A stretch of DNA of 64,000 nucleotides from Candidatus Koribacter versatilis Ellin345 (GTDB taxonomy: Bacteria > Acidobacteriota > Terriglobia > Terriglobales > Acidobacteriaceae), in contig NC_008009.1 of the NCBI RefSeq assembly GCF_000014005.1, forward strand, positions 992,001 to 1,056,000, written 5' to 3'. Positions within the stretch are counted from its first letter, which is position 1. Each line of letters begins with the position of its first letter. The notes beneath the pieces were generated by a model. That model saw only the letters and a list, made by a program, of their open reading frames with translations, ran no database searches and had not been told where the DNA came from. A program made the translations under genes and the position numbers. This document shows, piece after piece, positions 31,256 through 46,893 of the stretch.

Positions 31256-33016
31256 GTGTACGAAGCAAACCGCCACGTCGCCGCCCTTGTCCTTACCGCT
31301 TTCCTGGCGGCTTCTTCCTCTGTGCAAACGGGACACAACGCGCCTATGCCGTCTCCTCCTGGCGCAAAGTCGACAAAGTGCAACGGGCGGCCCATCCCGC
31401 AGTTTGAAGACGTAACTTCCAAGGCCGGGATCCGCTTCACCCATACCTCCGATCCTTCCAAGAAGTACATCGTCGAGTCAATGAGCGGCGGCGTGATTCT
31501 GATTGATTACGATCGCGACGGTTGGCCGGACATCTATTTCACCAATGCCCCTACGGTTGATAAGGCCTTGAAAGGAGAGACGAGTCTCGGAGCTCTCTAC
31601 CACAACAATCACGATGGCACCTTTACCGACGTGACCGCAAAATCTAGGCTGGATTCGCCCTGCTTCGCCATGGGCGGGGCCGTGGGTGACTACGACAACG
31701 ATGGCTGGCCCGATCTCTACCTGACCTGCTTCGGTGGCAACGTCCTGTACCACAACGACGGGAACGGCACCTTCACTGACGTAACGAAGAAAGCCGGAGT
31801 GCGCGATGGCCGATGGTCCACAGGCGCGTCCTTCGGAGACTACGACGGCGACGGCAACGTGGACCTGATGGTGGTGAACTACGTCGATCTCCGTCTCAAC
31901 GATCTTCCGCCCTTTGGAAAACTTCCGAACTGTAAATATCGTGGCATCGATGTCCAGTGCGGTCCCCGCGGGTTGAGGGGTGCGGGCGACTCTCTCTTCC
32001 ACAACAATGGTGACGGCACCTTTACCGACGTTTCCAAGGCCGCCGGGGTCGACGATGTCCCGGGATATTTCGGAATGGGCGTCGTCTGGGTTGACTTCAA
32101 CAATTCGGGGCGTCCAGACATCTACGTCACGAACGACTCCAGTCCGAAATATCTCTACAAGAATGAAGGCAACGGAAAGTTCAAAGAGATCGGCCTTGAG
32201 TCCGGTACCGCGGTCAACGAAGACGGCTCAGAGCAAGCTTCCATGGGCATCGCCGTCGGCGACTACAACCACACCGGACGGCCCTCCCTCTACATAACCA
32301 ACTTCGAAGATGAAGACGACCTTCTTTATCGTAACGATGGCGATTGGAACTTCACGGACGTCTCGTACAAGTCAGGCGTGGCGTTGCCTTCGCTGCGATC
32401 GGTGAAATGGGGAGACGCCTTTGCGGATTTCGATAATGACGGCTGGCTCGACATCTTCGCGGTCGGCGGTCATGTTTATCCGCAGGTGGACGGACTTCCA
32501 TCTGGCGGAGGATATCGCCAACCGAAACTCTTCTACTTGAACCAGAAAGATGGATCCTTCTGCGACGCCGCCGACAAGGCCGGTCCAGCCCTAGCCGAGA
32601 AGCGCGTCTCGCGGGGCGTAGCTGTCGGCGATCTATTCAACGACGGCAACCTCGATATCGTGGTTGAAGACCTCGACGGCAGCCCGACGATCCTGCGCAA
32701 CAAAGGCGTCCCCGGAAACCATTGGGTGAGTTTTGAGTTGGCGGGTACCAAGAGCAATCGCCTGGCACTCAACGCCAAGGTGAAGATCACAGCGGGCGGA
32801 GTTACCCAGACCGATGAAATTCATAGCGGCGGCAGCTATCTGTCGCAGAACGATCTCCGGGTGCATTTCGGACTCGGAACCGCAACGAAAATCGACTCCG
32901 TCGAGGTCCGCTGGCCATCGGGCAAAGTGGACACCGTGAAGGACATCCAAGCCGATCACTACTACGCCATCCTGGAGGGAAAGGGAATCGTTTCCGGTCT
33001 CTCCCGGAGTCACTAG
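31256..33016 (+). CDS. CRTAC1 family protein (FG-GAP/VCBS repeats with ASPIC/UnbV C-terminus)
   Basis: 586 residues from GTG 31256, with a signal peptide (HVAALVLTAFLAASSSVQ). Calcium-binding beta-propeller repeats recur as IDYDRDGWPDIYFTN, GDYDNDGWPDLYLTC, GDYDGDGNVDLMVVN, VDFNNSGRPDIYVTN, ADFDNDGWLDIFAVG and GDLFNDGNLDIVVED; each D.D.DG/N.D loop fits a calcium site. The C-terminal about 70 residues (TDEIHSGGSYLSQNDLRVHFGLGTATKIDSVEVRWPSG) are the ASPIC/UnbV domain. The protein is exported and probably binds proteins or glycans. It is the second gene of the TPR/CRTAC1 pair. Confidence 0.9.
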   Translation: MYEANRHVAALVLTAFLAASSSVQTGHNAPMPSPPGAKSTKCNGRPIPQFEDVTSKAGIRFTHTSDPSKKYIVESMSGGVILIDYDRDGWPDIYFTNAPTVDKALKGETSLGALYHNNHDGTFTDVTAKSRLDSPCFAMGGAVGDYDNDGWPDLYLTCFGGNVLYHNDGNGTFTDVTKKAGVRDGRWSTGASFGDYDGDGNVDLMVVNYVDLRLNDLPPFGKLPNCKYRGIDVQCGPRGLRGAGDSLFHNNGDGTFTDVSKAAGVDDVPGYFGMGVVWVDFNNSGRPDIYVTNDSSPKYLYKNEGNGKFKEIGLESGTAVNEDGSEQASMGIAVGDYNHTGRPSLYITNFEDEDDLLYRNDGDWNFTDVSYKSGVALPSLRSVKWGDAFADFDNDGWLDIFAVGGHVYPQVDGLPSGGGYRQPKLFYLNQKDGSFCDAADKAGPALAEKRVSRGVAVGDLFNDGNLDIVVEDLDGSPTILRNKGVPGNHWVSFELAGTKSNRLALNAKVKITAGGVTQTDEIHSGGSYLSQNDLRVHFGLGTATKIDSVEVRWPSGKVDTVKDIQADHYYAILEGKGIVSGLSRSH

Positions 33017-33039
33017 CGATCGCCGCAACTCAAAGGCAG

Positions 33040-33068
33040 TTGTCAGGATTGAGCAGATACGCTATGAT
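33040..33068 (+). promoter_or_regulatory. Strong sigma-70 promoter of the sulfur operon
   Basis: TTGTCA (33040-33045), 17-base spacer, TATGAT (33063-33068). The expected start, about seven bases after the -10 box, falls at 33075-33076, on or next to the ATG of the poly-Cys leader ORF. This implies a leaderless first reading frame. Confidence 0.75.
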
Positions 33069-33075
33069 CACGCCC

Positions 33076-33156
33076 ATGTTCTTCCGCACCTCCAGCGTTG
33101 CCATGTGTTGTTGCTGCTGTTGCAGCATGCTGGCGCGTGGAGGAACGAAGAGCTAA
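33076..33156 (+). CDS. Leaderless poly-cysteine leader peptide of the sulfur operon
   Basis: A 26-codon ORF. After MFFRTSSVAM there are six consecutive Cys codons (33106-33123, a mix of TGT and TGC), then SMLARGGTKS and TAA. It sits between a strong promoter and an intrinsic terminator (33180-33216), upstream of a sulfur-uptake and APS-reduction operon. This is the classic layout of transcription attenuation: with scarce Cys-tRNA the ribosome stalls on the Cys run and the terminator should be prevented. Known parallels are the leaderless polycysteine short ORFs of mycobacteria. GTGG (33137-33140) plus GCG (33133-33135) near the ORF end can pair with CCAC/CGC inside the terminator 5' side, a possible antiterminator. 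The peptide itself probably has no other function. Confidence 0.8.
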   Translation: MFFRTSSVAMCCCCCCSMLARGGTKS

Positions 33157-33179
33157 TTTCATAGCAATACAGCCTTCTT

Positions 33180-33216
33180 AAACCACCGTCGCAACCGTGC
33201 CGGTGGTTTTTCTTTT
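33180..33216 (+). terminator. Attenuator terminator of the sulfur operon
   Basis: Nine-bp stem AAACCACCG (33180-33188) / CGGTGGTTT (33201-33209), extended inside by GCA/TGC, followed by TTCTTTT. It lies 23 bases after the leader stop codon and 51 bases before the first structural gene, so it would block the whole operon unless bypassed. Confidence 0.88.
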
Positions 33217-33267
33217 GCTCCAAAATCCCACCGCGCCGAACCCTAACTGACTCGAAAGGACCTGCGA

Positions 33268-34275
33268 TTGAAAGCGCGGAGTGTTACTGCCCTATTGTTT
33301 TTCCTTCTGGCGGCCGCCCTGTTGCCCGCACAGGTGGCGATTCGCGTGGGCTATTTCCCAAACGTTACGCATGCGGAGGCACTCGTCGGTCGCGCGAACG
33401 GCCGCTTTGAACAAGCCCTGGGGAGTGCCACAAAACTCGAGTGGAAGACCTTCAACGCCGGGCCGTCGGGGATCGAGGCGCTTTTCGCAGGCGCCGTCGA
33501 CTTGCTTTATGTCGGTCCTAATCCAGCGATCACCGGATACATCCGATCTCAAGGCGAGGCGTTGCGTGTGGTTGCCGGAGGCGCCAGTGGAGGCGCTTCT
33601 CTGGTGGTGCGTAAGGGCGCGAACATTCGGAACGTTGAAGACTTTCGCGGCAAGAAGGTAGCGTCCCCACAACTGGGGAATACACAGGATGTCGCTCTGC
33701 GGGCCTGGCTGTTGCAGAACCACCTTAAGAGCACCGACAAAGGTGGCGACGTGCAGATTGTCCCGCTCGCCAATCCCGATCAGCTCACACTCTTTCAAAA
33801 GGGACAGCTCGATGCGTCATGGGCGCCGGAGCCCTGGGCTGCGCGGCTGATTCAGGAAGCCGATGGCCAGATATTTCTTGATGAACGCTCCCTCTGGCCA
33901 GACCACCGGTTCGCCGTCACGGAGGTCGTGGTACGGACGGCATTTCTGCGCGAGCATCCGGACCTGGTGAAGAAGTGGTTGAGCGTCCACGTGGAACTGG
34001 CGAACTGGATCAACAAGAACCCTGGCGAAGCGAAGGCGATTGTTAATCGGCAAATTCAGAGCGACACCGGTAGAGCACTGCCTTCGCGAGTGTTGGACGA
34101 GGCGTTCAGCCGGCTCGAAATCACCTATGACCCAATCCGCTCGTCGTTGACCGTTGTTGCGGAACGCGCCTATCAAGCGGGTTTCCTCAAGCAAAGGCCA
34201 GACCTGAGTCGCCTTTACAGCTTTGAGCTGCTCAACCAGGTGTTACGCGAAAAGAACTTGCCGAACGTTGAATAG
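33268..34275 (+). CDS. ABC transporter substrate-binding protein, SsuA/TauA/NrtA-like (sulfonate or sulfate)
   Basis: 335 residues from TTG 33268 with GAAAGGA upstream. Signal peptide (VTALLFFLLAAALLPAQ), then a type II periplasmic-binding fold: IRVGYFPNVTHAEALVGRAN, NAGPSGIEALFAGAVDLLYVGPNPAITGYIRS, NVEDFRGKKVASPQLGNTQDVALRAWL and LDASWAPEPWAARL. The pattern matches aliphatic-sulfonate/taurine/nitrate binding proteins. The operon has sulfate-activating enzymes but no sulfonate monooxygenase (SsuD/TauD), so the physiological substrate may be sulfate. That is an inference. It is the first structural gene behind the Cys attenuator. Confidence 0.85.
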   Translation: MKARSVTALLFFLLAAALLPAQVAIRVGYFPNVTHAEALVGRANGRFEQALGSATKLEWKTFNAGPSGIEALFAGAVDLLYVGPNPAITGYIRSQGEALRVVAGGASGGASLVVRKGANIRNVEDFRGKKVASPQLGNTQDVALRAWLLQNHLKSTDKGGDVQIVPLANPDQLTLFQKGQLDASWAPEPWAARLIQEADGQIFLDERSLWPDHRFAVTEVVVRTAFLREHPDLVKKWLSVHVELANWINKNPGEAKAIVNRQIQSDTGRALPSRVLDEAFSRLEITYDPIRSSLTVVAERAYQAGFLKQRPDLSRLYSFELLNQVLREKNLPNVE

Positions 34276-34290
34276 GAATTGGAGAAGAAG

Positions 34291-35112
34291 ATGGCAGCGC
34301 TAGTGGAATTACCATCCCCGATTGTCGCTGAGACAAAGATCTCGGTGCGTGGAATCACGAAGCGATTCGCACACGGCCGCGAGCAGCTTACGGCGTTGCA
34401 AGCGATCGATCTGGAAGTGCGCCGTGGGGAATTTCTCTGCGTCGTGGGTCCCTCCGGCTGCGGAAAATCAACGCTGCTTCACATCATCGCCGGACTCGAA
34501 AAGCCCTTGGGCGGTGAAGTTCGGATCGACGACATTCCGACCAACGGACCAGGCCCAGATCGCATTCTGATTTTTCAGGATCTCGGTTTGTTTCCCTGGC
34601 TCAGCGTTCGGGAAAATGTGGAATTCGGGCTCAAGATGAAAGGCCTCTCGCGGCGCGAACGCGCGGATCGAGCACGACACTTCATCCGCCTGGTTCATCT
34701 TTCGCAGTTCGAGAACAGCTACATCCACCAACTTTCCGGAGGCATGCGACAAAGGGTTTCCCTGGCGCGCGCTCTGGCGCTGGCGCCGAGCGTGCTGCTA
34801 ATGGATGAGCCCTTCACGGCACTCGATGCGCAAACCCGCGACCTGCTCCACGACGAGCTAGAGAGGATCTGGGCAGAGACGCGCCAAACAATCCTGTTTG
34901 TCACCCACAACGTGCGCGAAGCAGTGCGGTTGGGCGACCGCGTCGTCGTGATGACCTACCGGCCTGGGCGCATCAAGCGCGAGTTCGGCATTGAATTGGA
35001 TCGTCCGCGCGCGCTCGAAGATCCCGAAGTGGCGGCGCAAGCGGCGGAGATCCTGGCGGAATTGCGAGGCGAGATCGATCAAGCCGTTCGCGCAGAGTAC
35101 AGCCATGCGTAA
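34291..35112 (+). CDS. ABC transporter ATP-binding protein, SsuB-like
   Basis: About 273 residues. ATG 34291 is preferred, with GGAGAAG upstream, over an in-frame TTG at 34279. Walker A GPSGCGKST, Q-loop FQDLGLFPWLSV, signature LSGGMRQR, Walker B VLLMDEP and the switch His in FVTHNV are all present, so it is a complete ATPase. The LFPWLSV form is typical of nitrate/sulfonate/taurine importers. It overlaps the start of the permease gene by eight bases. Confidence 0.92.
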   Translation: MAALVELPSPIVAETKISVRGITKRFAHGREQLTALQAIDLEVRRGEFLCVVGPSGCGKSTLLHIIAGLEKPLGGEVRIDDIPTNGPGPDRILIFQDLGLFPWLSVRENVEFGLKMKGLSRRERADRARHFIRLVHLSQFENSYIHQLSGGMRQRVSLARALALAPSVLLMDEPFTALDAQTRDLLHDELERIWAETRQTILFVTHNVREAVRLGDRVVVMTYRPGRIKREFGIELDRPRALEDPEVAAQAAEILAELRGEIDQAVRAEYSHA

Positions 35113-35863
35113 AGCCCTGCAACAAATCGCGTTTTACTCCACGCTGCTCGTGCTCTGGGAATCTGTAGCGCTCCTGAAACTTTGGCCGCCGTACCTGTTT
35201 CCGACGCCGCTGACAGTATTCGAATCGCTGCGAGCGGGATTCAGCGACCACAGTTTCTGGATCGGCATAACAGTCAGCATGAAGCGCGTGGCAATCGGCT
35301 ACGCGATCTCCTGCCTCCTCGGCGTTGGCCTCGGATTTCTGATTACCTACAGTCGCTTCCTGTCGGAAACTGCCGGACGACTCATCGTCAGCCTGCAGAG
35401 CATTCCGAGTATCTGTTGGCTACCGGTTGCCATCTTGTGGTTTGGACTCACAGAGAAGGCGATTTTGTTTGTGGTGGTGATGGGATCTCTCCTGGCAATC
35501 ACCATATCGGTGGAGTCCGGCTTGCGAAGCATACCGAAGATCTACTCGCTCGCCGGCCGCAATCTCGGCGCCAATGGATGGAAGTTAATGGTCCACGTGC
35601 TGCTGCCAGCGAGCCTTCCGTACTTAATCTCCGGGCTTAAGCAGGGATGGGCGTTCGCATGGCGCTCGTTGATCAGCGGCGAAATGATCTTCGTAACTCT
35701 CGGCCTGGGTCAGTTGTTGATGATGGGCCGCGACCTCAACGACATCAGCCAGGTCTTCGCCGTGATGCTCCTCATCGTCGCGCTCGGTTGGCTGGTGGAC
35801 ACGCTCTTTTTCCGCGGACTCGAACGCGCCGTGCAGCGCCGATGGGGATTCGCGACGCCCTAA
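35105..35863 (+). CDS. ABC transporter permease, SsuC-like
   Basis: 252 residues from ATG 35105, inside the end of the ATPase gene. About six membrane segments are visible, such as LLVLWESVALLKLWPPYLFP, AIGYAISCLLGVGLGFLI, ICWLPVAILWFGLT, AILFVVVMGSLLAITISV and VFAVMLLIVALGWLVDTLFF. The EAA-type loop reads AGRNLGANGWKLMVHVLLPASLPYLISGLKQGW. It completes a three-gene importer. Its TAA overlaps the ATG of a 16-codon ORF that leads exactly to cysD. Confidence 0.92.
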   Translation: MRKALQQIAFYSTLLVLWESVALLKLWPPYLFPTPLTVFESLRAGFSDHSFWIGITVSMKRVAIGYAISCLLGVGLGFLITYSRFLSETAGRLIVSLQSIPSICWLPVAILWFGLTEKAILFVVVMGSLLAITISVESGLRSIPKIYSLAGRNLGANGWKLMVHVLLPASLPYLISGLKQGWAFAWRSLISGEMIFVTLGLGQLLMMGRDLNDISQVFAVMLLIVALGWLVDTLFFRGLERAVQRRWGFATP

Positions 35864-35913
35864 TGATTGACATGACAATTGCAGCTCGAAATCGCGAGAT
35901 GGAAAAGGGATGA
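35863..35913 (+). CDS. Possible 16-codon coupling ORF between permease and cysD
   Basis: ATG 35863 overlaps the permease stop (TAATG), and its TGA (35911-35913) overlaps the cysD ATG (ATGA). It reads [16 protein letters not shown] and has no Cys. It could let ribosomes travel without a gap from permease to cysD, or it may be chance. The cysD ribosome site (AAAAGGGA) lies inside it. Confidence 0.3.
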
Positions 35914-36854
35914 CAATGACATCGCTTGCAGAACAAGCGCCAGCTCAATCCAGTGCGCGGCGCCTCAGTCACCTAAAGCTCCTTGAAGCGGAGAGCATCC
36001 ACATTTTCCGCGAAGTGGCCGCGGAGTTCGAACGGCCGGTGATGCTCTATTCGATCGGGAAGGACTCCTCGGTCATGCTGCGATTGGCGCAAAAGGCGTT
36101 CTATCCAGCCCCCATCCCGTTTCCGCTTCTGCATGTGGATACCGGCTACAAGTTCCGCGAGATGCTGGAATTTCGCGATTCCTATACGAGAGAGCTGGGG
36201 TTGCAGCTACTGGTGTGGCGCAATGAATCGGCAATTGCGAAAGGAACCAACCCGGTCGCGCTTGGAACCAAGCAATGCTGCGGCTACCTGAAGACTACCG
36301 CGTTGCTAGATGCGCTGCAGCATTACGGCTTCGATGCCGCATTCGGCGGAGCACGCCGCGACGAGGAAAAGTCACGCGCGAAAGAGCGGATCTTTTCATT
36401 CCGTGATCGTGCGGGCCAATGGGACCCAAAGAACCAGCGTCCGGAGTTGTGGAACCTTTACAACTCGCGCGTAGCGCCTGGCGAGAGCATCCGCGTCTTC
36501 CCGCTATCGAATTGGACGGAACTGGATGTGTGGCATTACATCCACCTGGAAAACATTCCGATTGTTCCGCTCTACTTCGCACAGCCACGGAGAATGCTGG
36601 TTCGCGGAGATAGTTTGATACCCATCGAACAACCGTTTGTTACTGGGTTGCCGGGCCGCGAAGAGACGGTGCGCTGCCGATTGCGTTCGCTCGGATGCAG
36701 TCCCTGCACCGGCGCCATTCGCTCCGACGCCGATACAGTTCCGAAGATCATCGCCGAACTCGTGGCATTTCGCACATCAGAACGTGCCAACCGTGTTATC
36801 GATCACGATCAGGAAGGCTCCATGGAAATCAAGAAGCGTGAGGGATACTTCTAA
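35910..36854 (+). CDS. cysD: Sulfate adenylyltransferase small subunit CysD
   Basis: 314 residues. With CysN it makes adenylyl sulfate (APS) from ATP and sulfate. The PP-loop nucleotide-binding region is [20 protein letters not shown] (about 47-66), followed by [39 protein letters not shown] and the C-terminal [10 protein letters not shown] are standard CysD marks, and the length is normal (about 302). ATG 35910 is used; ATG 35916 is also possible. The stop overlaps the cysN ATG (TAATG). Confidence 0.96.
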
Positions 36855-38485
36855 TGGCTACAGTGTTCACTCTTCGCGAAGACAATGCCGATTCTGATAT
36901 CCAGAGTTTTCTGGAGCAGGAACAAGCCAAGGACATTCTGCGCATCAGCACTGCAGGCAGCGTGGACGACGGCAAGTCCACACTCATCGGTCGCCTGCTC
37001 TATGACTCGCGCAACGTTTATGAGGACCATGTTCGTTCGGTGACGCGCCACGATGTTTCGCTTGGCACATCGGTGGTGGATTTTGCACAACTGACAGATG
37101 GGCTTCGTGCCGAACGCGAGCAGGGAATCACTATTGACGTAGCGTATCGCTACTTTTCAACTGCGAAACGGAAGTTCATCATCGCCGACACTCCGGGCCA
37201 CGAGCAGTACACGCGCAACATGGCTACGGGTGCTTCGACTTCCGATCTCGCGATCGTGCTCATCGATGCGCGCAAAGGGGTGCTCGTTCAATCGCGCCGT
37301 CACCTCTACATTGCCGCCCTGCTGGGGATCCCGCGGGTGGTGGCGACAATTAACAAGATGGACCTGGTGGATTTTTCGCCCGAGGTGTTCGCCGCCCACT
37401 CGCTGGAATTGAAGCGCCTCGGCGATGGACTCGGGATACCGAGTCTCGTCACGATTCCCATCAGTGCATTGGATGGAGACAACGTCGTTGAGACCAGCGC
37501 CCGCACTCCTTGGTACGACGGCCCAAGTTTGTTGCAGTTTCTGGAAACCGTTCCGGTAGAAAACGCTTCGGAGGTCGCGTTTCGTCTTCCGGTGCAGCGC
37601 GTGCTTCGCCCACACCAGGAGTACCGTGGCTTTGCGGGACAGATCGCCGCGGGCGCAGTGCGGCCCGGGGATCAAGTGGTTGTCTTGCCGTCAGGCCGAA
37701 GCAGCCGAGTGCGTTCCATCACCACGTTCGATGGAGACTTGCCATCCGCTGAAGCCCCACTTTCCATCGCCCTGACACTAGAGGATGAAGTGGATGTCAG
37801 CCGTGGGGACGTGATCGCAGCGGCAGATGCGCCTCCCACGGTGGCAAAGCGGTTCGAGGCCTCGCTCGTCTGGATGGATTCAGCTGAGTTCCGTCCCGCC
37901 AAGCGATATCTGCTGAAACACACCGCCCAGGTGGTGCCCACCACCGCAATCACAATCAAAAACCGAGTGAATGTGCAGACGTTTGAAACGGAACAATCGT
38001 TCGTGTTGCACATGAACGACATCGCGATCGTGGAGATCGAAACCAAGCGCCCCCTGGTAGGCGATTCATACCGCGACAATCGCACTACGGGGAGCTTCAT
38101 CTTGATCGATCCGGAGACGAACTCCACCGTCGCTGCCGGAATGATCCGTTCGTTTGTCGTTAACCCATCACTAAGCAAACATCACGTTCCTATCGTTGAA
38201 CTGCGCAAAGGAGCTGTCGTGGACGCGGTCGAGCAGAAATTGTTCGATCGTGGATACCTGGTGGTTCGCACGAAGCTCGATCCTGACCGGTTGCTGCAGC
38301 GCTTGCATCTGCCTCGACTGGTCCTGCTCCTGGAAGGCCCTGACGTTCACTATTCCCGGATCCGCTCTTTCTCACGTCAAACGCGTTTGTCCGTGGAGTA
38401 CAGAGTCGAGACATCCGCTACACCCGACAGCATTGTTGAAAAGATCGTTGCGCTGCTGACGGAGGAGAAAATCGCTCATGAGTAG
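36854..38485 (+). CDS. cysN: Sulfate adenylyltransferase large subunit CysN with short C-terminal extension
   Basis: 543 residues. This GTPase subunit drives APS formation by CysD. G1 is AGSVDDGKSTLIGRLL (about 34-49), G3 DTPGHEQY (about 114-121) and G4 NKMD (about 169-172), followed by two beta-barrel domains. CysN alone is about 475 residues and CysNC fusions about 630. Here the last about 100 residues (from HVPIVELRKGAVV) have no P-loop, yet end in VETSATPDSIVEKIVALLTE, much like the end of APS kinase. It looks like a shortened, inactive APS-kinase remnant. This fits a pathway that reduces APS directly and needs no PAPS. Confidence 0.93.
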   Translation: MATVFTLREDNADSDIQSFLEQEQAKDILRISTAGSVDDGKSTLIGRLLYDSRNVYEDHVRSVTRHDVSLGTSVVDFAQLTDGLRAEREQGITIDVAYRYFSTAKRKFIIADTPGHEQYTRNMATGASTSDLAIVLIDARKGVLVQSRRHLYIAALLGIPRVVATINKMDLVDFSPEVFAAHSLELKRLGDGLGIPSLVTIPISALDGDNVVETSARTPWYDGPSLLQFLETVPVENASEVAFRLPVQRVLRPHQEYRGFAGQIAAGAVRPGDQVVVLPSGRSSRVRSITTFDGDLPSAEAPLSIALTLEDEVDVSRGDVIAAADAPPTVAKRFEASLVWMDSAEFRPAKRYLLKHTAQVVPTTAITIKNRVNVQTFETEQSFVLHMNDIAIVEIETKRPLVGDSYRDNRTTGSFILIDPETNSTVAAGMIRSFVVNPSLSKHHVPIVELRKGAVVDAVEQKLFDRGYLVVRTKLDPDRLLQRLHLPRLVLLLEGPDVHYSRIRSFSRQTRLSVEYRVETSATPDSIVEKIVALLTEEKIAHE

Positions 38486-39182
38486 CACAACATTCGATCT
38501 CGGATTCCAGGCCAAAATTGCCGCTGCGCAAGCTCTCGTGCAGGAATCCATCGAACACGCGAAGCGACCGTGCTTGACGTGCAGCTTCCAGGCAGAAGAC
38601 GTCGTGGTGCTTGACCTGCTTCGGCAAGTGGTGCCTGACATCCCCGTACTGTTCCTCGATACCGGATATCACTTCGCGGAGGTCTATCAGTACCGGGACG
38701 AGATCGCCTCGAAATGGCGGCTGAACCTAATCAATCTGCTGCCCAAGCAATCCGTGGCCGAGCAGGAGAGTGCGTTTGGCATTCTTTACCAAACTGCGCC
38801 GGACCGCTGTTGCGGTGCTCGAAAAGTAGAACCGCTGTTCCGCGCCCTGGAGAATTATTCGACATGGTTCACGGGGCTGCGCCGTGAGCAGTCCAAGAGT
38901 CGATCGGCGCTGCAGTCGATCGATCTCTTTACGCTGCCAACCGGAACGGAGATTCAGAAGGTCAGCCCACTTGCCGAGTGGAGCACCCGGGATGTGTGGA
39001 CGTACGCCTCGGCACATGGCATCCCGTTGCTTCCCCTTTATGAGAAGGGCTACTCCAGCATTGGATGTGAGCCCTGCACGAGCCTGCCCTCCGAGGGCGA
39101 TCCTCGATCTGGCCGATGGGGCGGCCACAAGCTTGAGTGCGGTATTCACATCCAACCGTCGGCAACTTCCGAGAAACCCTAA
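38478..39182 (+). CDS. cysH: Assimilatory adenylyl-sulfate (APS) reductase, [4Fe-4S] type
   Basis: 234 residues, overlapping cysN by eight bases. It reduces activated sulfate to sulfite using thioredoxin-like thiols. The two Cys pairs CC (111, 112) and CEPC (197-200) are the iron-sulfur ligands that separate APS reductases from PAPS reductases of the E. coli type. The catalytic Cys is in LECGIH (221). LFLDTGYHF and FTGLRREQSKSR are the nucleotide-binding motifs. This agrees with the lack of a working APS kinase in CysN. Four bases after its stop, a second Cys-containing short ORF begins. Confidence 0.94.
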   Translation: MSSTTFDLGFQAKIAAAQALVQESIEHAKRPCLTCSFQAEDVVVLDLLRQVVPDIPVLFLDTGYHFAEVYQYRDEIASKWRLNLINLLPKQSVAEQESAFGILYQTAPDRCCGARKVEPLFRALENYSTWFTGLRREQSKSRSALQSIDLFTLPTGTEIQKVSPLAEWSTRDVWTYASAHGIPLLPLYEKGYSSIGCEPCTSLPSEGDPRSGRWGGHKLECGIHIQPSATSEKP

Positions 39183-39186
39183 CGAC

Positions 39187-39273
39187 ATGCACCGACCCAG
39201 TTCCTTCCAACAACTCGCAGTTGTGACCAGCGGCCAATGTTGTCGCATGCAGGACGCTTTGCCGGCGCCGTAG
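39187..39273 (+). CDS. Cys-Cys leader peptide upstream of the porin (second putative attenuator)
   Basis: A 28-codon ORF, four bases after the cysH stop: MHRPSSFQQLAVVTSGQ, then two Cys codons (TGT TGT, 39238-39243), then RMQDALPAP and TAG. An intrinsic terminator follows at 39311-39339. CCGGCG near the ORF end (39262-39267) can pair with CGCCGG of the terminator 5' arm (39313-39318), a possible antiterminator that a ribosome finishing the ORF would mask. The layout repeats that of the operon head, so it probably makes porin expression cysteine-dependent. No clear promoter was found, so it may act on read-through from cysH. Confidence 0.6.
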   Translation: MHRPSSFQQLAVVTSGQCCRMQDALPAP

Positions 39274-39310
39274 CGGACGTGTATCTCGATCGAACGATCG
39301 TCGTCCTTCT

Positions 39311-39339
39311 ACCGCCGGTGACCCCGGCGGTTCATTTTT
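39311..39339 (+). terminator. Attenuator-type terminator before the porin gene
   Basis: Perfect eight-bp stem ACCGCCGG (39311-39318) / CCGGCGGT (39324-39331) with loop TGACC, then TCATTTTT. It is 27 bases before the porin ATG, so any transcript reaching the porin must bypass it. Confidence 0.8.
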
Positions 39340-39365
39340 GCTTGAAAAAAGAAGAGGAAAAGTAC

Positions 39366-40994
39366 ATGACGCTGCAGCACACAGCGCCCTATGCTCGAAT
39401 TGCCTTATTGCTGCTGGTTTCGGCGACTTCAGTCGTCGCGCAGTCCTCTGCAACAAAAGCACAGACAAGCTCTGACGACGATCTTCGCGCACAGGTCGAA
39501 GAGCTACGGCAACTCGTCATCGCTCAACAGAAAAGAATCGAAAAGCTGGAACACCGGGGCGGAGAAGCCCTGGTTGCGGATACAACCAGCACGCCCCCGC
39601 CCAGTCAAGCCGGGCCGCAAGAGCCAGCAAATCAGCCCGTCGTTTCCAACGTCAACCGACAGCTGACCAGCGGAAGTACAGACGAACGCATCCGCAACCT
39701 CGAGCGACAAATCCAGGGGCTTGGACCCATCTCCTTTAGTGGCGACATTCGTCTCCGCGGCGAAGCCTTCATTGATGGGCCAGACGATCATTCTCTGGTT
39801 CGCACTCGAGCACGGGTGCGGGCGCGATTCAACGCCACGGCGGATTTAGGTGATCAATTCGAGACCGGCCTCTCGCTAGCCAGCGGCGACGTCAACGATC
39901 CGATCTCCACAAATCAAACGCTCGGCGGATTCTACACACGAAAAGCCGTTGCTCTCGACCAGGCATTTCTCACTTACAAACCGCATGCATTCCGCGCGCT
40001 CACTCTAACTGGGGGCAAGTTCCGTTATCCCTGGGTGAATACCGAACTCACCTGGGATAAGGACCTCAACCCGGAGGGGTTTGCACAGAAGCTTGACTTC
40101 ACCTTCGAATCACAACCGGTACTGAAGGGGATTTCTGTCGTTGGATTCGAACTTCCCTTTGCGGAAGTGGCGCGTATGGACGCGACCAACAAGAGCATCG
40201 TGCAGAGCGTTACTTATGGGGGCCAGTTGCAAACCCACTGGCAACTCGGACCGCGCGTTCGCTTTCACGCCTACTCCGGGTTTTATGACTTCCATGGTGC
40301 GGACGCGATCGCGATCGCGCTGGCGAAGGCGAGCGCTAAGAATCCCCAGACTCCCCTTGCCGGTGCATTGCCGCTGCAAGCGGGTGGTAACCCGGTCCAG
40401 AATTCGATCTACACCACGACTGCGAACAACGTTGTCACGGTGAACGGCATTTCGTATCCGACCGGCGTCAGTTCGGTTACGAATGCTCAGTTCGCATCAA
40501 AGTTCGGGCTGTTCGACAACATCGCGCGGTTCGACATTGATACCGCTCACCCTCGAGCGCCGCTGACTCTCATCGGAGACTTTGTGCAGAACACCGAAGC
40601 CTGCGGCAATCTCAGCGAGATACAGACCGTCCCCGCGAATACCTCCAGCGTCATTTACAAGCAGTCGCTGAATGCGACGTGCCGTGCGTCGGAACGCCGC
40701 GGATACTGGTTGGAAGCGCGTGTTGGCCGTCTGCTTAAGAAAGGCGATTGGCAGTCGGGATATGCAAGAATATTTGTTGATCGCGAAGCCGTGCTTGGCA
40801 ATTTCAACTACAGCGACATGCGCCAGGGGACCAACGTAACCGAGCATCGTGTCGATACGTTTTATCAACTGCAGAATAGCGTTCAGCTAGGAGCGACCGC
40901 GCTAATCGGTCGTCCGATCGGGATACTCAACTCGACCGGGAGGGTCGAGCCATGGCTCCTGCGTCTTCAGTTCGATGTTACGTACATATTCTAG
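39366..40994 (+). CDS. Outer-membrane porin-like protein of the sulfur operon
   Basis: About 542 residues from ATG 39366 (AGAGGAAAA upstream), with a signal peptide (RIALLLLVSATSVVAQ). Residues about 40-65 (DDLRAQVEELRQLVIAQQKRIEKL) form a short coiled coil, as in trimeric porins. Beta-barrel sequence follows, with GDIRLRGEAFIDGP, LRLQFDVTYIF as the last strand and a terminal Phe. This fits the 'putative porin' group. Its position behind cysH and its own Cys attenuator suggest an outer-membrane channel induced by sulfur shortage, perhaps for sulfate or sulfonates; that is inferred. Confidence 0.75.
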   Translation: MTLQHTAPYARIALLLLVSATSVVAQSSATKAQTSSDDDLRAQVEELRQLVIAQQKRIEKLEHRGGEALVADTTSTPPPSQAGPQEPANQPVVSNVNRQLTSGSTDERIRNLERQIQGLGPISFSGDIRLRGEAFIDGPDDHSLVRTRARVRARFNATADLGDQFETGLSLASGDVNDPISTNQTLGGFYTRKAVALDQAFLTYKPHAFRALTLTGGKFRYPWVNTELTWDKDLNPEGFAQKLDFTFESQPVLKGISVVGFELPFAEVARMDATNKSIVQSVTYGGQLQTHWQLGPRVRFHAYSGFYDFHGADAIAIALAKASAKNPQTPLAGALPLQAGGNPVQNSIYTTTANNVVTVNGISYPTGVSSVTNAQFASKFGLFDNIARFDIDTAHPRAPLTLIGDFVQNTEACGNLSEIQTVPANTSSVIYKQSLNATCRASERRGYWLEARVGRLLKKGDWQSGYARIFVDREAVLGNFNYSDMRQGTNVTEHRVDTFYQLQNSVQLGATALIGRPIGILNSTGRVEPWLLRLQFDVTYIF

Positions 40995-44661: not shown

Positions 44662-46893
44662 GTGGAAAAGTTCTCACAAATCGAAAATGTTCAAGGTGCG
44701 TCACGTACCAGCTGGGCAGACGTGCAGGAAGATCGCGAAGCGGATCTCCTGCATGTGCTGTATGTGTTGCGTCGTCACCTCCAAATGATCATCGGTGTCA
44801 CCGCATTCGGTGTCCTCGTTGCAATCCTCTTCTGCCTATTCATGAAACCGCGCTACGAAGGCATGGCAGATTTAAACGTGCATCCTGAAGAATCTGCTGC
44901 GCTCGACATGGGCGCGCTTGGAGACCTGGCGACCGGCGCGGGTGGCTTAGATTGGAGTTCCAAACTCGAGACACAAGCGCGCATCTTGAAGAGCGACACT
45001 CTGGCGTGGGATGTGATCTCCCAATTGCGGCTCGATCAGAATGAGGCGTTCGCAACCAAGTCGCTCTTCGGTCGGTCTTTGCAAACGCCCGTAGGGAAGG
45101 ACGTCAGTTCCGTCGATGAGGCACGCAAATCCAAGCTGCTTACGCGCTTTTCCAAGGCCCTTCGTGTTGAAGCTGTTCCGAAGACTCAGGTAATAGAGAT
45201 TCGGTTCCGCAGCACCGATCCAGCGCTCGCCGCGAAGGTCGTCAATACGCTCACCTCGTCGTATATGCACCACAATTTCATGACTCGCTTCGAAGCGACG
45301 ATGCAGGCGTCAGCTTGGTTGCAGCAGCGCTTGACGGAGCTCAAGAACAACGTCGAGGAGTCTCAGCGAAAACTCGCGGAGTATCAATCGAAAGCGAACA
45401 TCATCGGAACCGACGAAACGGACAATCTTGCAGTTTCTGATCTTACCGACGTCAGCAAGCAGCTGACCGATGCAGAATCCGACCGGATCATGAAAGAAGC
45501 CAAGTATCGGCTCGCCCAGACCGGCAATCCGGAGCTGATTGGCACCATACTTCCGGATAGCGTGTTGCCGGTTCTCCGCTCACAAGAAGCCGATCTCAGA
45601 AATCAATTGGCACAGTACAGTACCAAGTTTGGCTCGAACTATCCAAAAGTGATCCAGCTCAACAATCAGTTGGCACAAACGGACGCCTCGTTGAAAAAAG
45701 AAATCCGAGACATCGAGGAACGCTTCCGCACTGAGTATGAATCGGCGAAACGTACCGAAGATCAACTGCGAGCTTCAGTTGAAAACCGTAAGAAGGAGGC
45801 GTTCTCGCAATCGGCCAAGTTCAGCCAGTACGACATTCTCAAAAATGAAGTAGCGTCTGGCCGGAGTCTATACGAAGACCTCCTTCGCAAACTGAACGAA
45901 GCGGGAATCGCGGCCGGGTTGAAGTCAACCAATGTTGATGTGATCGACCCTTCGGCGGTACCTCAGCTTCCGGTCTTGCCGAATGTTCCGCTCTTTATCG
46001 CGCTTGGGTTGTTTGGTGGCGCATTCCTTGGGGTGTGCAGCGCATTCGTGAAGGAGAGCATCGACCAAACCATCAGTTCGCCCGAGGATGCGGAGGAGAT
46101 GGCTGGCATCTCGACCATCGGCTTGATTCCTCACTTCTCGATGGAGGGACTCAATGCTCTCGCGACTGAAAATCAGTCGGTTCTAGCTCGGGTACCTCTC
46201 GCCGCAGACCGCCCCCAGTCGAAGCTCGCAGAAGCCTTCCGTGCCCTACGTACCTCTCTCCTCCTTGCCAATGCTGGAGCGCCTCCGAAAGTCATCATGA
46301 TAACGAGCGCACAACCTGGCGATGGCAAGAGTACCGTGAGTGTCAACATTTCAGCTGTGTTGGCACAGTCAGGTGCCCGAGTGTTACTCGTTGATGCGGA
46401 CTTGCGCCGCGGCGTGCTCGCCAGAAATCTCAAGGTGATGCCAGAGGGAGGCCTTAGCGAGTGCCTCGCAGGACGAAAGTCTTGGCGCGATCTGATCATC
46501 CCGGTGAACGGCGTTGCGAACATGTGGGTGCTTCCGGCCGGCCATCGGCCTCCGAGCCCGGCTGATCTTTTCACCTCCAACAAAATGGAGGAAATCCTGA
46601 ATGAGTGGCGCGGAGCGTTTGACCACGTCGTGATCGACACTCCTCCGGTTGTTGCAGTGACAGATGGCGTCGTTCTTTCGCAAAAAACGGATGCCGTGCT
46701 CCTGATTGCGCGCGCGTCGAGAACTGGCCGACACCCGCTGCGTCATGCGCGCATGCTGCTGGCGAAGGTTCGTGCAAATGTCGTCGGCCTGGTTGTGAAT
46801 GACTTCGATGCGAAAGCGAAATACTACGGGTACTCATACAGTTACGACAAGTACTACGTCGAGGATAAAACCGAGACGACCGTTAACAACTAA
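44662..46893 (+). CDS. Polysaccharide co-polymerase / tyrosine autokinase, Wzc-like
   Basis: 743 residues from GTG 44662. The first membrane span is at about 37-58 (IIGVTAFGVLVAILFCLFM). A long periplasmic coiled-coil Wzz domain follows, and a second span (PLFIALGLFGGAFLGVCSAF) lies near 440-460. The kinase domain has SAQPGDGKSTVSVN (Walker A, about 548-560), LLVDADLRRG (Walker A') and VVIDTPPV (Walker B). The C-terminus ends in a tyrosine cluster KYYGYSYSYDKYYVED, the autophosphorylation site that controls chain length and export. It is the third gene of the export unit. Confidence 0.93.
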   Translation: MEKFSQIENVQGASRTSWADVQEDREADLLHVLYVLRRHLQMIIGVTAFGVLVAILFCLFMKPRYEGMADLNVHPEESAALDMGALGDLATGAGGLDWSSKLETQARILKSDTLAWDVISQLRLDQNEAFATKSLFGRSLQTPVGKDVSSVDEARKSKLLTRFSKALRVEAVPKTQVIEIRFRSTDPALAAKVVNTLTSSYMHHNFMTRFEATMQASAWLQQRLTELKNNVEESQRKLAEYQSKANIIGTDETDNLAVSDLTDVSKQLTDAESDRIMKEAKYRLAQTGNPELIGTILPDSVLPVLRSQEADLRNQLAQYSTKFGSNYPKVIQLNNQLAQTDASLKKEIRDIEERFRTEYESAKRTEDQLRASVENRKKEAFSQSAKFSQYDILKNEVASGRSLYEDLLRKLNEAGIAAGLKSTNVDVIDPSAVPQLPVLPNVPLFIALGLFGGAFLGVCSAFVKESIDQTISSPEDAEEMAGISTIGLIPHFSMEGLNALATENQSVLARVPLAADRPQSKLAEAFRALRTSLLLANAGAPPKVIMITSAQPGDGKSTVSVNISAVLAQSGARVLLVDADLRRGVLARNLKVMPEGGLSECLAGRKSWRDLIIPVNGVANMWVLPAGHRPPSPADLFTSNKMEEILNEWRGAFDHVVIDTPPVVAVTDGVVLSQKTDAVLLIARASRTGRHPLRHARMLLAKVRANVVGLVVNDFDAKAKYYGYSYSYDKYYVEDKTETTVNN

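Follow-up and report, generated by a model that had tools for sequence, protein, structure and literature searches.

We report that a short open reading frame (ORF) with a run of Cys codons, located in front of a sulfur operon of Candidatus Koribacter versatilis Ellin345, very probably forms part of a ribosome-mediated transcription attenuator, which senses cysteinyl-tRNA from a leaderless or nearly leaderless transcript. The promoter spacing, the Cys run, the terminator, the co-varying alternative pairings and the recurrence of the design before sulfur genes can be read from the sequence, and from these we infer the transcript start, the stalling of the ribosome and the regulated termination. 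The window, i.e. the whole stretch of 64,000 nucleotides analysed, contains the following features:

33040 to 33045, + strand: -35 box TTGTCA, from the promoter scan
33063 to 33068, + strand: -10 box TATGAT, after a 17-nt spacer, the end of the box lying 7 nt 5' of the ATG at 33076
33076 to 33156, + strand: leader ORF of 26 codons, MFFRTSSVAMCCCCCCSMLARGGTKS, with ATG at 33076 and stop codon TAA at 33154-33156
33078 to 33153, + strand: 1:2 hairpin across the leader ORF (computed fold, -38.0 kcal/mol for the ORF)
33106 to 33123, + strand: six consecutive Cys codons (TGT TGT TGC TGC TGT TGC), the putative sensor
33128 to 33154, + strand: region 2, 5' strand of the putative antiterminator, pairing with 33171-33193
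33171 to 33193, + strand: region 3, overlapping the 5' arm of the terminator
33180 to 33216, + strand: intrinsic terminator with stem 33180-33188 / 33201-33209 and T-rich tract 33207-33216
33268 to 34275, + strand: gene of an ssuA-like sulfonate-binding protein, TTG start, AAAGGA at 33255
34279 to 35112, + strand: gene of an ssuB-like ABC ATPase
34991 to 35863, + strand: gene of an ssuC-like ABC permease (open frame as listed; the true start is probably after 35100)
35910 to 36854, + strand: cysD
36854 to 38485, + strand: cysN
38478 to 39182, + strand: gene of a cysH-type reductase
39237 to 40994, + strand: gene of a putative porin (Porin_5), by inference possibly the last gene of the operon

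A sequence-only reading of this DNA had proposed a near-consensus promoter TTGTCA-17-TATGAT, a 26-codon ORF with six successive Cys codons, a strong 9-bp intrinsic terminator in front of SsuABC-CysDNH genes and an alternative pairing of GCG/GTGG with CCAC/CGC, and each of these elements was recovered in our analysis. The promoter at 33040-33068 is the only sigma-70-like match within 32500-33600 (shuffles: mean 0.3), located between the stop codon (33016) of the FG-GAP/ASPIC gene 5' of the leader and the hairpin, and it predicts a transcript start at 33075-33076, by which the leader ORF is expected to be leaderless or nearly so. The 9-bp terminator stem has a computed energy of -16.1 kcal/mol; a stock terminator scan gave no match at 33180-33216, probably as it accepts loops of up to 8 nt only. 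The proposed alternative pairing turned out to belong to a longer 2:3 duplex of 33128-33154 with 33171-33193 (-21.8 kcal/mol), and the region 33076-33217 folds better than 200 of 200 shuffles (z -4.1). Behind the terminator we found SsuA, the ABC ATPase, the permease, CysD, CysN and CysH, followed by the putative porin. Searching Rfam at 33000-33300 revealed no family above the gathering score and five sub-threshold matches with E 0.5-6.3.

Within the real window only 33076 combines promoter, Cys ORF and terminator. One further match at 44696, with the short ORF MRHVPAGQTCRKIAKRISCMCCMCCVVTSK, lies out of frame inside ORF 44662-46893, has no terminator and was taken as chance. In 40 shuffled windows (both strands) the composite of a Cys-cluster ORF and a close promoter was matched 27 times, seven times with a terminator and never with six Cys in a row. 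Because about 0.2 terminator-bearing matches are expected per shuffled window, the layout at this single locus is moderate evidence, and the comparative data decide.

Short ORFs with Cys runs had been predicted before cys operons of other Acidobacteria, and they recur upstream of cysD above random expectation (dinucleotide shuffles): a short ORF with a Cys cluster lies no more than 320 nt upstream of cysD at 52 of the 61 own-family loci (2.9 expected) and at 12 of the 63 loci from other Acidobacteriota families (1.1 expected), the latter count leaning towards higher identity because many places of lower identity were left out. The own-family set comprises 61 loci from 59 genomes, with G009 and G040 counted twice, nine duplicate loci (L122-L130) left out and longer locus versions replacing shorter ones; the own cysD is scored as a miss as the own leader stands before ssuA. 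The sample of the other families is composed of the listed loci and 40 regions, one place at a contig edge not being included. Among its 12 positives, L259 is probably a chance ORF adjoining a real leader further upstream. If a promoter is required, 46/61 own-family and 10/63 other-family loci remain. The terminators also predicted to follow such ORFs were found by scan at 30 of 124 cysD loci, i.e. after about half of the promoter-bearing leaders (30/56, with 26/56 lacking one), the matches in L240 and L262 looking doubtful. Composite leaders occur in six of 20 families sampled (f1, f2, f7, f8, f33 and f93), and family f55 shows Cys ORFs with no matching promoter. In one genome scan of 80 named cysD loci, 10/35 acidobacterial loci passed, including Granulicella sp. 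dw_53 and Edaphobacter lichenicola, compared to 0/45 non-acidobacterial loci, two of which had a Cys ORF without a promoter; less than 420 nt of upstream sequence were available for 4/35 acidobacterial and 3/45 other loci.

The expectation of such leaders upstream of both ssu and cys genes held for cysD and to a much smaller extent for ssuA, where two of 30 loci, the window's own and that of genome G078 (L045), carry a leader and 28 have no convincing one. The SsuA protein of G078 is 70% identical to that of the window, and its gene is preceded by MFLPASNMCTACCCCPSCHLSTGGGTKSS. Aligning the DNA of both loci shows the -10 region kept in part and the ORF end GTGGAGGAACGAAGAGCT and the terminator block CCACCGTCGCAACCGTGCCGGTGG kept; in the G078 terminator the pair next outward from CCACCGTCGCAACCGTGCCGGTGG is changed in a compensatory manner from A-T to C-G, and the position of the Cys stretch is shifted between the two leaders. 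Two ssuA loci (L026, L035) contain doubtful ORFs only, and two others (L031, L039) are shortened by contig ends. The same-genus genome G001 yielded no ssuA orthologue (one 28% match) and no cysD match. At 13 of 15 leader-less ssuA loci (L046-L060) an open frame of roughly 160-210 codons ends near the ssuA start; three of these frames were examined with no identity found, and a different regulator before ssuA is possible in this group.

For the question of where translation starts, each ORF was searched for its best promoter over the 160 nt that precede the first Cys codon, with the distance left free to avoid circularity. For 55 of 64 Cys ORFs, and for 32 of 33 with better-scoring promoters, 5-12 nt separate the end of the best -10 box from the first in-frame ATG/GTG, in agreement with the prediction that promoters would lie a few bases ahead of the start codon. 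Swapping promoters and ORFs between loci resulted in a mean of 15.4 and a maximum of 26 of 64 at this distance (2,000 permutations). SD-like tetramers precede 5/56 leaders compared to 12% at random positions. With transcription initiating some 7 nt past the -10 box, the observed spacing of 5-12 nt suggests 5' leaders of about 0-5 nt across the related Cys ORFs. A computational survey of 2011 reported leaderless genes in 3/3 Acidobacteria genomes with a mean of 13.3% (PMC3160421).

The alternative pairings were analysed in 26 leaders selected for the presence of a terminator. The 2:3 duplex, formed by the ORF end and the 5' arm of the terminator, has a mean energy of -23.1 kcal/mol in native and -18.2 kcal/mol in swapped combinations, and the 1:2 duplex of ORF start and ORF end -32.3 and -26.8 kcal/mol, respectively (0/20,000 permutations in both cases); the swap permutation removes row and column effects, e.g. 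G+C content, and leaves phylogeny in. With a ribosome stalled at the Cys codons and the 3' arm of the terminator unmade, the computed pairing of the 5' arm with region 2 is 0.73 on average compared to 0.34 with shuffled upstream sequence (0/60 sets) and 0.38 without a ribosome, at least nine of the 26 leaders then being within 0.1 of their stalled value; in L045, L068, L094 and L173 the stalled pairing was no better than many shuffles. For the own leader the corresponding values are 0.75 with the ribosome stalled at the first Cys codon, 0.60 at the last one and 0.02 without a ribosome. A ribosome that has reached the stop codon gives 0.00, a trivial value as it covers region 2. Judged by these computed folds, the leaders would possess a mutually exclusive antiterminator involving the ORF end, as trp-type attenuators do. 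An equilibrium fold of the whole transcript is without a visible switch, the finished terminator winning despite a stalled ribosome (P ~0.95). Since the terminator is dominant once complete, the switch must be kinetic and decided during transcription; trp-type attenuators are usually argued to switch kinetically.

In the model that we favour, RNA polymerase would initiate on the leader ATG or a few bases away from it, and the ribosome would load on the bare 5' end. With ample cysteine, the ribosome would clear the Cys codons, and with region 2 covered as far as the stop codon the terminator would form before ssuA. Upon scarcity of Cys-tRNA, the ribosome would stall on the Cys run, by which the 1:2 hairpin is broken, and the freed region 2 would capture the 5' arm of the terminator before the 3' arm is made, resulting in transcription continuing into ssuABC-cysDNH.

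Codon choice points in the same direction. The Cys codons of the 26 terminator-bearing leaders are predominantly TGT (TGT 118, TGC 36), in contrast to the cysD genes of 24 of these 26 loci (TGT 7, TGC 111); ten window genes have TGT 5 and TGC 22. A reversed Cys codon bias would be expected if the leader is tuned to sense scarce Cys-tRNA, TGT and TGC presumably being read by one tRNA, and RNA structure could contribute to the TGT bias of the leaders. TGT in leaders versus TGC in genes constitutes a natural test of wobble decoding setting the sensitivity to charged tRNA.

Attenuation at the level of translation, in which a ribosome stalled at the Cys codons would open up the ribosome-binding site of the first gene, the hairpin being incidental, is unlikely for the window leader, as its terminator is strong and carries a T-rich tail, the terminator block is nearly identical in G078 with its one compensatory pair change, and the arm pairings co-vary with the ORF end across the 26 leaders. 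Several observations nevertheless favour such an output. In mycobacteria, the polycysteine ORFs with a leaderless start (Canestrari et al. 2020) are reported to exert translational control (PMC13236596, PMC9031893). In genus g34, eight terminator-less leaders (L241-L248) have ORFs ending 44-68 nt before cysD with the cysD GGAG paired at 0.88-1.0, and in the computed folds this group looks like a translational version of the control; the same genus has terminator-type leaders in L232, L233 and L236. Within the window, the ssuA ribosome-binding site is partly paired (0.54-0.71, computed), and the leader before the own cysK, described below, ends in its Cys run with at most a weak hairpin. In general, the pairing of the gene's ribosome-binding site hardly separates those without (0.84) from those with a terminator (0.70), a weak contrast that argues against the translational explanation. 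The mycobacterial type may be approached more closely by the relatives lacking a terminator and by the leader before the own cysK.

As further observations on terminator-less leaders, MRISCQLRCCCPFNVEQACRLTR is an example from the group of L241-L248 and L154, and the leader of L154 (Edaphobacter lichenicola) encodes the same peptide as those of L243 and L248. The ORFs MKSTSHLRCCCCHACCACRGFVRACMCCCC in L075 (G047) and MKGVYCCCQCFSCCCC in L095 (G064) are extremely Cys-rich, their Cys runs sit at the stop codon, and a terminator was not found for either.

Promoter, ORF and terminator together also form a complete small transcription unit, which would fit a functional Cys-rich, e.g. metal-binding, small protein with the terminator ending its own transcript. 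We regard this as very improbable: the peptides keep their Cys clusters and differ in length and nearly all other residues, a search of nine leaders against NCBIfam gave no match beyond one weak one (E 0.3), and the opposite codon bias as well as the complementarity of ORF end and terminator fit a cis element. A mere coincidence of the upstream gene's terminator with a random TGY repeat, to which the 15 own-genome places with at least five TGY in a row (the two inspected being antisense to or inside a gene) and the seven terminator-bearing matches in 40 shuffled windows might lend credit, is practically negligible, as it predicts the design to be absent before the sulfur genes of relatives, where it was found in the own family (52/61 cysD loci, 2.9 expected) and in others, and as the leader/terminator block is conserved in G078 and the promoter sits between the upstream stop codon (33016) and the hairpin.

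The transcription attenuator supported here shares its logic with known systems and differs from each of them in its combination of parts. The best-known cases of attenuation by leader peptides come from enterobacteria, where the trp, his and leu attenuators have a leader peptide rich in the end product, 1:2/2:3/3:4 pairings and a terminator before the first gene. The window leader likewise shows a run of end-product codons, 1:2 and 2:3 alternatives and a terminator before ssuA. In contrast to the enterobacterial systems, which have 5' UTRs with Shine-Dalgarno sites, its ORF lies at or near the predicted transcript start, and the sensed amino acid would be cysteine.

The likeness to mycobacterial leaderless polycysteine ORFs, suggested by the sequence-only reading, is borne out for the sensor and fails for the output. 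Both have a short ORF that is leaderless (here by prediction), contiguous Cys codons and a position at the head of a sulfur/cysteine operon, and in both the speed of the ribosome would report cysteine, as we propose here. The window leader, located in another phylum, has an intrinsic terminator and an antiterminator made from the ORF end, whereas the mycobacterial output is reported as translational and without obvious terminators (PMC13236596, PMC9031893, PMC1262725). Because of its terminator we do not class the window leader as a member of the mycobacterial type, of which earlier hints are contained in PMC4633059. Seliverstov 2005 (PMC1262725) predicted Cys leader peptides before cys/cbs operons of Mycobacterium, Propionibacterium acnes and Bifidobacterium longum; these resemble the window leader in their Cys runs before cys operons and differ in that no obvious or conserved terminators were found, the mechanism being left open there and Rho being suggested. 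The uORFC-8-2 motif upstream of cysS in Rhodobacterales, for which a response to uncharged tRNA-Cys was proposed, shares Cys codons in a short ORF and a run of U residues that would fit an intrinsic terminator (PMC8632094). It differs in controlling cysS, in its two tandem Cys codons at about positions 14-15, which are mostly UGC, and in its alphaproteobacterial hosts, and the material used mentions no leaderless start (PMC8632094); with another downstream gene and another leader layout, the window leader falls outside this motif. The statement that cysteine attenuation had no description in Acidobacteriota agrees with the literature matches listed, which covered few subscription papers and no preprints and among which none was found. 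The combination of a leaderless Cys sensor with a terminator, found widely in this phylum and seemingly undescribed there, would be a new one.

Cys leaders also extend to other sulfur genes. The own genome has a second one, MNAPFYACCCCC (L044 1554-1592; G000:C1 about 2508853-2508891), before cysK-cysE, with a GTG start 8 nt after TTGCAA-18-TACAGT and 104 nt upstream of cysK. The same-genus genome G001 (L411) has MSAPFHSLSCCC at the same place with TTGCAA-17-TACAGT; both ORFs end in their Cys run with at most a weak hairpin. These two are the only composite leaders among 29 cysK loci, L419 and L429 being Cys-run ORFs without a promoter. Scanning both strands of the own genome for at least five TGY in a row gave 25 matches at 15 places, of which only the window's leader and L044 are convincing; the run in L041 is antisense to a Gln-rich protein, that in L043 lies inside a gene (one weak composite match, no terminator), and the remaining places offer nothing beyond loose ORFs that lack a matching promoter. 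Another search of the own genome reduced five matches to the window's leader only, and 87 matches of a further search were left out, so that the genome may hold additional, weaker leaders.

Outside the zone upstream of cysD, 15 composite matches were found in 1.6 million strand-bases of partly overlapping acidobacterial loci, seven with a terminator, of which six were inspected (L172 on the minus strand and the eight without a terminator being left out). These lie before cysD-cysN-cysH (L167), before a siroheme-synthase gene followed by cysH-cysD-cysN (L134), before TauE/SafE permeases (L162, L145) and before large outer-membrane beta-barrel proteins divergent from cysD (L122, L124), the genes of L134 and L167 being named cysD/cysN, and L122 being likened to L124, on the basis of their translations, and the others assigned by Pfam match. 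Among sulfite/nitrite-reductase-type genes (PF01077), leaders precede 9/30 loci (L324, L333, L337, L338, L340, L347, L348, L350, L352) and 9/20 further regions (as listed, L387, L389, L390, L392, L394-L396, L398, L402), two composite matches on the opposite strand not being counted; relaxing the criterion yielded no further leader among the 11 remaining regions of these 20. The own PF01077 gene has no such leader, and none was found at 30 loci of the SulP sulfate-permease family (PF00916). The Cys leader may mark the assimilatory sulfite, as opposed to nitrite, reductases among PF01077 genes.

The divergent barrel protein beside cysD, which we take to be Oar/TonB-like, is preceded in five genomes by a second Cys-rich ORF after the first leader, with Cys at its stop codon, and a terminator follows the first of the two ORFs in 4/5 of these, so that the sequences are suggestive of possible tandem attenuators. 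On the strand opposite cysD in L062, L063, L066, L067 and L068, a barrel protein (PF25183; CarboxypepD_reg in L124) has its own Cys ORF and close promoter. A relative of the barrel protein is encoded in G021 just upstream of ssuA on the same strand (L299/L035, G021:C209), preceded by MSFTSSFRMCCCSCCCC with TTGACA-17-TATTCT, which links the barrel protein to sulfonate uptake.

We regard as somewhat more likely than not a widespread acidobacterial cysteine-sensing regulon, in which leaderless Cys-run ORFs would be combined with interchangeable outputs, either terminators or hairpins masking the SD sequence or none visible, even within one genus or genome. It would cover sulfate activation, sulfite reduction, siroheme synthesis, cysteine synthase and serine acetyltransferase, sulfonate uptake, TauE/SafE permeases and the divergent barrel protein with tandem Cys ORFs, and would be either independent of the actinobacterial system or share a very old common root with it. 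The leader of the window would provide an example of a (nearly) leaderless ORF driving a terminator, and the presence of such leaders may point to sulfur-related membrane proteins. This offers a concrete, testable cysteine regulon for a large and poorly studied phylum.
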